A stretch of 64,000 nucleotides of DNA from a virus. The position numbers and the translations under genes were made by a program. The stretch covers positions 1 through 64,000 of IMG/VR virus record IMGVR_UViG_3300017963_000190; one strand, given 5' to 3'. Positions 19,933-23,294 of this stretch are shown here, in pieces; within the stretch, counting starts at the first letter, position 1, and each line of letters starts with the position of its first letter. The notes below the pieces were generated by a model. The model saw only the letters and a program-made list of their open reading frames with translations. It was not told the origin of the DNA and ran no database searches.

Positions 19933-19973
19933 TTGACTCCGGAGCAATGATGGTAACGCGTGAGGGTTTAACC
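19933..19973 (+). repeat. 41-bp element, copy 1
   Basis: TTGAC, N13, TGGTAACGCGTGAG, GGTTTAACC. It lies 46 bp from the -35 of the promoter at 19859-19886. Confidence 0.9.
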
Positions 19974-21227: not shown

Positions 21228-21668
21228 CTAAAGGGCACCAAGGGTTGCCAGGGATACGTAGTTGCCTCCCTGGGCTGTGATGATATGGTCTAGCACGGGA
21301 ACCCCGAGGAGATCCCCGCATTGCTTCAGACGCGCAGTGAGCTCGATATCATCCCTGCTAGGGGCCGTGTCCCCACTGGGATGGTTGTGCGCGAGGATAA
21401 CGGCGGCGGCCCCAGCGATGACCGCCCCACGGAATACTTCGCGGGGATGTATCTCGACACTGCCCAGCGAGCCCATAGCCACCGTTTGAACGGCCAGGCA
21501 TTGGTGCTTGGTATTGAGATACATCACAACGAAAGTCTCTTGAGCCCGGCTGTGAAGGCCGTAGGCGTCAAGTATTTCGTTGGCGTGCTCTGCCGTACTG
21601 ATCTTGCGCTGGGCATCAATCCTGCGCCCAGTGTAGGTCACTTCCGCTTCTCTTAGAATCATGCCCAT
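21228..21668 (-). CDS. radC: RadC-family JAB/MPN domain protein
   Basis: A 146-residue protein. VVMYLNTKHQCLAVQTVAMGS (split motif) and the JAMM signature HNHPSGDTAPSRDD (His-x-His, then Ser and Asp) identify the RadC/YeeS-type JAB metalloenzyme fold, which binds zinc. It is the short form found on plasmids, ICEs and phages, lacking the N-terminal helix-hairpin-helix of chromosomal RadC (about 220 residues). The biochemical role of this family is unsettled. The start is fixed by ACCGGAGGTAAGACC. Confidence 0.92.
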   Translation of the reverse strand: MGMILREAEVTYTGRRIDAQRKISTAEHANEILDAYGLHSRAQETFVVMYLNTKHQCLAVQTVAMGSLGSVEIHPREVFRGAVIAGAAAVILAHNHPSGDTAPSRDDIELTARLKQCGDLLGVPVLDHIITAQGGNYVSLATLGAL

Positions 21669-21690
21669 GGTCTTACCTCCGGTAGCATCT

Positions 21691-21718
21691 AAGATAAGCA
21701 CTATTGACAGCGTAACAA
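21691..21718 (-). promoter_or_regulatory. promoter
   Basis: TTGTTA-16-TATCTT; the same dyad as its neighbours but in reverse orientation. Drives radC and the zinc-ribbon gene. Confidence 0.7.
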
Positions 21719-21847: not shown

Positions 21848-23227
21848 CTAGTCCATCAGCCAATCGGTGCCGGCCATCTCAGCCATGATCCCAAAGACGT
21901 CTTCCCACATGGTCTCCTCAGCCGACCGGTGGGAAAGGGATCCATCGCGCCCCTTGTCGTGGGCCAACTCGTGGATCATGGTCCCGAGCAACCGTTGCAG
22001 CTTGCCCGTCACCTGGCGATTGATCCGGATCTCTTTGCTCCCGTGAGAGTAGGTCCCGAGGGGGGCGTCGGGTGCCGTGAATCCGAAACACCGAATCCCA
22101 TCCAGGCGATCCCTATCGGCGACGTCGGCCAGATCCAGGAGATTGATCGCCTTGTTCCAGTTGACGCGTTCCTGGGGATCCAGGTCGGCGACGGCCACGT
22201 AGTCTCCGCTGGAATCGATCGCCTTGTTTAGGATCTCCTCGATCGTCCCGAATTTGTTGGCCAGGACCTTGCCCATGCCGTCGGGAACCACGATACCCTG
22301 CAGACCGTAGAAGGACACCTTGGTGGCTTCGTCTTCGTTGGCCACCGGCACAGCCTTGTCACCGTAGGTATCGGCGAAGGTTGCGGAGATCTGCTCACCC
22401 ACTTCCTTATTAGAGTAGCGGCAGCAACCGGCCAGACGCTTCACGTCGGGCATGTCGGATTCGAGCATACCCCAGACATTGGAGATCCAGTCTTCGTCTT
22501 CGTTGTGCGCGCAAAGGGACGTCCAGAGTTGGGCCGCGGCATAGCCGAGATCATAGTCGTCGACCATGCGGCGATCCCGATCCAGATCCAACCCACTGGC
22601 GAAATCGTAGCCCACCGCCAGCTCGGGTTTGGTGCAGACGTAGATCCCTTTGCAGTAGATGCGCCCCTTCATGTTCTGGCCAAACAGGATGGATCCCGAG
22701 TAGCCAACGCGCTGGATCTCGTGATCGGGGATCTCGATGCACCGCAGGAAACGATCCTTGTAGTCGTTCCACTGCCGTTTGGAGATCTTGATCCGCACAG
22801 TGAAATCGGACGTCGGGCGATCCCCGTAGTAATCCTGGCGACGCTTGCGCACCTTGACAGCCAGGACATCCACGCCAGCGTAATTCTTGGACGCTTCAAT
22901 GGCCGGTGTCCAGATCTCATCCCCATTCAGGAATTTGACTTCGATCCCCTGGCGCAGTAGGGCCAGCACACCCACCTTGAGACCATCGCCATGCTGGCCA
23001 CGCAAGGCGTCGTTGTCGCGCTTGGTTGACTTCCCGAGCAACCACACAGACGTGTCCAGGACACAGTCTCTGTTGGTCACTTCAAGCCATCCGTTGTCGT
23101 GGTTGTAATACGCGGGGTAGCCTTCGTCATGGCTATCCAGGGCATTTTGCATGACTTCCCGCAGTCCTTCCCATACGCTCCAATCGGGGGCGTATTCTGC
23201 GGTGATACTGAGCTCGAAACGTGCCAT
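21848..23227 (-). CDS. GHKL ATPase fused to HExxH metalloprotease motif
   Basis: A 459-residue protein. REVMQNALDS (about residues 23-32) is the N box of GHKL ATPases, WLEVTNRDCVLD the region of the first glycine box, and GQHGDGLKVGVLAL (about 76-89) the second, as in MutL, Hsp90 and MORC. Near the C-terminus (about 414-424) MIHELAHDKGRDGS is a HELAH zinc-metallopeptidase signature followed by a possible third ligand (HRS or Glu). An ATP-driven clamp with its own protease active site is inferred. The start follows CCGGAGACAAAAC. Codons are rich in GATCC words, like the surrounding region. Confidence 0.75.
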   Translation of the reverse strand: MARFELSITAEYAPDWSVWEGLREVMQNALDSHDEGYPAYYNHDNGWLEVTNRDCVLDTSVWLLGKSTKRDNDALRGQHGDGLKVGVLALLRQGIEVKFLNGDEIWTPAIEASKNYAGVDVLAVKVRKRRQDYYGDRPTSDFTVRIKISKRQWNDYKDRFLRCIEIPDHEIQRVGYSGSILFGQNMKGRIYCKGIYVCTKPELAVGYDFASGLDLDRDRRMVDDYDLGYAAAQLWTSLCAHNEDEDWISNVWGMLESDMPDVKRLAGCCRYSNKEVGEQISATFADTYGDKAVPVANEDEATKVSFYGLQGIVVPDGMGKVLANKFGTIEEILNKAIDSSGDYVAVADLDPQERVNWNKAINLLDLADVADRDRLDGIRCFGFTAPDAPLGTYSHGSKEIRINRQVTGKLQRLLGTMIHELAHDKGRDGSLSHRSAEETMWEDVFGIMAEMAGTDWLMD

Positions 23228-23266
23228 GTTTTGTCTCCGGTTTGTTGGTTCTCGGTCCGTGCAAAT

Positions 23267-23294
23267 AAGATAAGCACTATTGACAGCGACACAA
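23267..23294 (-). promoter_or_regulatory. promoter
   Basis: TTGTGT-16-TATCTT, dyad in reversed orientation. Drives the GHKL gene. Confidence 0.65.

Follow-up and report, generated by a model that had tools for sequence, protein, structure and literature searches.

A phage GHKL–S5 protein carrying a predicted minimal zincin metallopeptidase domain

We analysed a window of 64,000 nt at the start of a virus record of 260,067 bases. The record consists of a single contig and probably stems from a jumbo phage. One gene of the window encodes an N-terminal GHKL-type module and a C-terminal zincin-like domain within one 459-residue chain. This two-domain architecture is conserved among relatives and borne out by the predicted fold; the GHKL–zincin fusion is real, and further cases exist in other giant phages as well as on bacterial and archaeal plasmids. 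We tentatively regard the window protein as a jumbo-phage member of the phrog_6077 family, built from a GHKL–S5 module, a helical linker and a minimal intracellular zincin. From this architecture we infer metal binding, proteolysis, nucleotide-controlled clamp closure and association with DNA. Concerning the virus itself, the phage search gave no match to the Terminase_6N profile and none to the profile of the T4-type capsid protein Gp23, the latter with the positive control absent.

The gene occupies positions 21848–23227 of the minus strand as an open frame of 459 codons with an ATG start, and the plus-strand frame across the same interval is interrupted by stops. The initial annotation had given coordinates and length correctly and named no strand, which we supply here. 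The mechanical open reading frame comprises 523 aa and begins at a TTG further upstream; the 459-aa start is better supported, because a Shine–Dalgarno sequence (GGAG, 23235–23238, minus strand) precedes the ATG at 23227 by 7 nt. By eye, a candidate promoter of the form TTGTGT-16 nt-TATCTT can be placed at 23267–23294 on the same strand, under the threshold of the promoter scan. All features of the protein described below are likewise encoded on the minus strand, and the three motifs quoted in the initial annotation are all present, at residues 23–32 (REVMQNALDS), 77–86 (GQHGDGLKVG) and 419–423 (HELAH).

Residues 2–330 match the phrog_6077 profile with an E-value of 7.2e-61, and tblastn detects this N-terminal part in 113 phage records, mostly annotated as hypothetical or histidine kinase-like ATPase and in some relatives as ‘RIIA lysis inhibitor’. 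The Pfam search of the window protein returned no GHKL call, so that such a call has to come from its relatives: HATPase_c_3 is matched above cut-off by L011 (E 4e-8), L012 has a Pfam match at E 2e-5 that barely passes the 25-bit cut-off with 25.1 bits, and L100 matches HATPase_c at E 7e-4. We counted motif conservation over 46 aligned viral rows. The N box (23132–23161) has the ExxxN pattern with the catalytic Glu, E24 and D31 being present in 46/46 rows and N28 in 45/46; K69 is invariant; and the G2 box (22970–22999) has the GxxGxG pattern, with G77, G80 and G82 in all 46 rows. The G1 box LEVTNRDCVL (residues 48–57, 23057–23086) is degenerate: DxGxG with its adenine-binding Asp is lacking, and the canonical Asp position (residue 52, 23072–23074) is occupied by Asn in the window protein and by Asn, Ser or Thr in 34, 6 and 6 of the phage rows, respectively. 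Cellular relatives retain DxGxG (ISDKGDGL, IRDFGRGL). Because this Asp is replaced across the whole phage branch, we lowered the claim of a working ATPase; base specificity or use of ATP may differ in this branch. Despite the change in G1, homology and fold still place the window protein near the GHKL superfamily. The initial annotation had described a GHKL ATPase with its own metalloprotease domain, a description that family profiles, conservation and predicted structure uphold, with the exception of the missing canonical G1 Asp.

The GHKL part is followed by an S5-like transducer region (about residues 140–241, 22505–22810), delineated from the secondary structure of the model and from fold matches to Hsp90 and MORC2, and by a helical linker region (about residues 242–347, 22187–22504), delineated from the model. 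The transducer contains an RDR motif (residues 217–219, 22571–22579), in which D218 and R219 are found in 46/46 rows and R217 in 44/46. S5 domains usually contribute a basic finger residue (PMC2292703), and RDR is a candidate for the arginine finger of this S5 domain.

The whole-chain model has a mean pLDDT of 91.5 and a pTM of 0.82. Compared with solved structures, it matches Hsp90 (E 1.5e-6) and MORC2 (E 4e-5), matches through which a Bergerat fold with S5 transducer can be recognised in the predicted model, and Wss1 (probability 1.00, rmsd 3.0 over 66 columns), the last of which, given the short aligned stretch and the fold, almost certainly runs through the C-terminus. In a Foldseek comparison with a viral structure library, RIIA proteins recur at E-values of about 1e-6 to 1e-3. 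We modelled the putative zincin domain (residues 348–459, 21851–22186) also on its own and obtained a pLDDT of 94.4 and a pTM of 0.86. The initial annotation had proposed structure prediction as a check, and as far as the predicted domain goes, nothing speaks against a metal site built from its His residues: a helix and three strands are followed by an active-site helix ending in HExxH and by a further helix that starts near H433, the arrangement of a zincin metallopeptidase core. The best solved matches of this separate model are selecase, PprI with single-stranded DNA, Wss1, the SPRTN-type, protease-dependent DPC-repair entries 6mdx and 6mdw, abylysin and IrrE; the E-values of these fold matches are weak (about 0.02–0.1), and the top of the list belongs nearly entirely to one superfamily.

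HExxH alone is weak evidence, since 1.0% of shuffled copies of the window protein contain it. We therefore aligned the zincin domains of the window protein and 15 viral relatives with intact motif, which share the pattern HExxH(4-6)DGxxxH. H419, E420 and H423 of HELAH (21959–21973), the predicted zinc ligands and general base, Asp428–Gly429 (21941–21946) and His433 (21929–21931), the predicted third metal ligand, are invariant in 16/16 rows at a domain identity of 17–70%, which argues for selection on catalysis in these 16 rows. The alignment has 102 well-filled columns, of which 8 are invariant, and the four named zinc-site columns are all among them; the corresponding chance of 1.6e-5 should be read as approximate, because the rows were chosen partly by HExxH, though not by H433. 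A coincidental occurrence of HExxH was rejected on the conservation among homologues and the predicted fold. A sixteenth intact relative, left out of the alignment, reads HEYIHQVTGKHD, where the candidate for the third His stands at +6 from the second one; this relative also matches Pfam WLM weakly (L147; score 15, cut-off 26). Matches of the window protein and other members to Pfam SprT-like are similarly weak (12.5–13.6 bits, gathering score 25.6). These scores all lie below gathering level, and the relation to the SprT-like and WLM families (Wss1, SPRTN) is, as far as the sequences tell, one of works-like only. A profile of the zincin domain searched against PDB sequences retrieved mainly metalloproteases, all of them weak, with a best E-value of 0.005.

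Of 102 viral relatives obtained in two scans, 16 have a homologous HExxH, 4 a degenerate form and 82 none; typical phrog_6077 members are about 340–390 aa long (~365) and have a short tail without HExxH. The four degenerate relatives (L107, reading EEVSH, L111, L132 and L053) retain a zincin-like tail that has lost HExxH, so the domain can persist without catalysis; they possibly form a pseudo-enzyme series. Because some relatives have lost zinc ligands and the phage branch lacks the adenine-binding Asp, we regard the activity of the window protein as predicted. In a maximum-likelihood tree built on the N-terminal 350 residues, one group (support 89/70) unites 15 of the 17 rows that bear a zincin with 3 degenerate ones, and within it 16 rows including the window protein share a branch with support 97/90; the zincin rows L020 and L032 fall outside the main group. 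Contigs that carry a member with an intact or degenerate zincin are far longer than those of the other members (threshold 180 kb or more, Fisher p 1e-6); the relatedness of members within the clade inflates this value, and the contigs may be fragments.

The same two-domain layout is found in cellular and plasmid relatives from Bacillota, Streptomyces and haloarchaeal elements. The Natrinema, Natrialba and Halobellus proteins carry HELAH and the Streptomyces protein HEGGH; the Kitasatospora relative has no HExxH. Two plasmid proteins contain three tandem GHKL-type modules each, one from Aneurinibacillus (L011, 1426–4302, 959 aa, C-terminal HEQVH) and one from Alkaliphilus (L012, 1921–5235, 1105 aa, C-terminal HEEVH). 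Since the motif of the Bacillota and haloarchaeal proteins reads HExxH...D[RQ]TREFE, their third ligand may be Glu. The cultivated, SPO1-related Exiguobacterium phage vB_EalM-132 encodes a 437-aa homologue (AYP68649.1) with HETIH...DNTEAF, annotated as hypothetical. IMG/VR queried with the window protein alone and with a 3-row alignment gave no matches, and the C-terminal domain alone as tblastn query retrieved no significant phage record. That the fusion turns up again on Bacillota and Streptomyces plasmids and among haloarchaea points to a tool used generally by mobile elements.

The gene surroundings were inspected in the window and at the loci of the relatives. Directly downstream on the same strand lies a gene for a RadC-like JAMM-domain protein (21228–21701; phrog_10276, E 8.5e-35), and most of the other neighbours tested are unknowns. 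Among the loci of the relatives we found no conserved operon partner that would name a substrate, and no universal neighbour; a DinG-like helicase, recognised by sequence inspection, lies near the gene in L018, L110, L113, L132 and L171. On three large phage contigs a second, different GHKL protein (HATPase_c_3) is encoded within a few kb (L101, 8435–9949; L108, 7740–9383; L109, 11114–12676); a search of the present 260-kb record, run without positive control, found none. Two near-identical haloarchaeal segments from Natrinema and Natrialba (L099 and L097, 10.2–12.9 kb) have the GHKL–zincin gene close to a Piwi-domain gene, and the Halobellus locus (L098) has a partial match to that Piwi protein; as a hint at defence, this proximity is only a lead. 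The initial annotation had further considered a defence sensor. A function as host defence sensor is not supported, because the gene resides in a phage genome, no PADLOC defence model matches the window protein and no defence island is seen around the gene.

The sequence GGTAACGCGTGAGGGTTWAACC occurs in 21 copies with up to 2 mismatches at 19952–49812, confined to 19.95–49.8 kb of the 260-kb record; 17 copies lie on the plus strand amid mostly minus-strand genes, the copies inspected are intergenic and often follow TTGAC, and a control pattern gave 0 copies. They may serve as divergent promoters or as sites for a regulator. No sister phage was found when the repeat was used as a probe. Between 19906 and 33555, recurrent blocks upstream of minus-strand genes combine CCGGAGGTAA-type Shine–Dalgarno sequences with TTGACnnC...TATATT-like promoter cassettes, so that the starts of many short genes are almost identical.

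How the two domains might work together can be outlined by analogy. Nucleotide binding closes the N-terminal dimer in Hsp90, MutL and MORC; MORC2 is a DNA clamp, and Wss1 and SPRTN are DNA-activated proteases of DNA–protein crosslinks. In the window protein, nucleotide binding would similarly close the N-terminal dimer, and closure would capture DNA or a client protein and bring the zinc-loaded peptidase onto it, which would then cut a protein in the course of infection; DNA-bound host or roadblock proteins are the most plausible substrates. Cleavage on DNA is suggested by the analogy with the MORC2 clamp and the Wss1/SPRTN proteases. The reading we prefer, at a confidence that falls short of even, is an intracellular protease that works in the infection cycle under control of the clamp and acts perhaps on DNA-bound proteins. 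The more general proposal of a nucleotide-gated protease, in which a GHKL clamp and not an AAA+ unfoldase feeds DNA or clients to the fused zincin in jumbo phages and mobile elements, we consider unlikely.

The main rival, in our judgement likewise unlikely, is a counter-defence protein of the rIIA type, whose GHKL module senses or binds a host defence component that the peptidase destroys, the zincin being one of many interchangeable C-terminal domains. The Foldseek matches to RIIA proteins and the places in which relatives are annotated as ‘RIIA lysis inhibitor’ speak for it, but the named RIIA matches cover part of the chain at a TMq of about 0.3–0.4, the likeness is one of fold and not of orthology, and the proposal names no defence target. 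It is compatible with the same biochemistry as the clamp-protease reading. That the zincin has become a binding or structural domain, leaving the protein an ATPase clamp or scaffold only, would fit the degenerate C-termini of L107 (EEVSH), L111, L132 and L053 and the majority of family members that are devoid of a zincin, but is made quite improbable by the zinc ligands and Glu that stay invariant in the 16 intact rows despite their divergence. We find it quite improbable, too, that the zincin cuts the chain it belongs to, or another phage protein encoded nearby, and thereby releases or activates the ATPase: autoprocessing has been proposed for the zincin MPTases of phage polyvalent proteins (PMC5512222), and a helical linker does separate the two domains here, but polyvalent proteins are large and have many domains, unlike this chain of 459 aa and one ATPase, and neither a cleavage site nor virion association is evident.

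To our knowledge, phage GHKL proteins, rIIA and its relatives, have long been without clear biochemistry. With its predicted active site, this conserved phage GHKL branch provides something concrete to mutate, a single Glu (E420) in a single gene. Should the clamp govern the peptidase, the protein would represent an energy-linked protease design on an ATPase of the Hsp90/MORC type.

Comparison with known systems places the window protein between several of them. It resembles phrog_6077 over residues 2–330 and has an extra zincin of ~110 residues. With T4 rIIA and RIIA-like phage proteins it shares the GHKL-type N-terminal fold; the matched RIIA proteins have about 600–1000 aa and are distant in sequence. 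The rIIA orthologues of jumbo phages combine GHKL with highly variable C-terminal domains, and SprT-like peptidases of jumbo phages are reported separately from them (PMC7824862); we found no statement in the literature that any RIIA protein carries a zincin. The GHKL–S5 ATPases of the MORC/paraMORC and Hsp90 type provide the best solved-structure matches, and GHKL–S5 proteins occur with nuclease and other effector domains or partners (PMC2292703), in a text that contains neither ‘peptidase’ nor ‘protease’. No description of a GHKL–metallopeptidase fusion was found in the literature searched, which mostly excluded subscription papers; the fusion is a real and uncharacterised variation on the theme of GHKL–S5 plus effector, for which we claim no priority. 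The MPTase domains of polyvalent proteins are likewise zincins joined to a different enzyme, in proteins of phages and plasmids, and take a Glu of the second helix as third ligand (PMC5512222, in whose text GHKL is absent). The minimal core of helix, three strands, HExxH helix and helix is shared with Wss1/SPRTN/SprT, with IrrE/PprI and with the minigluzincins selecase and abylysin; a point of difference is the third ligand of the window zincin, which appears to be a His within HExxHx4DGx3H.
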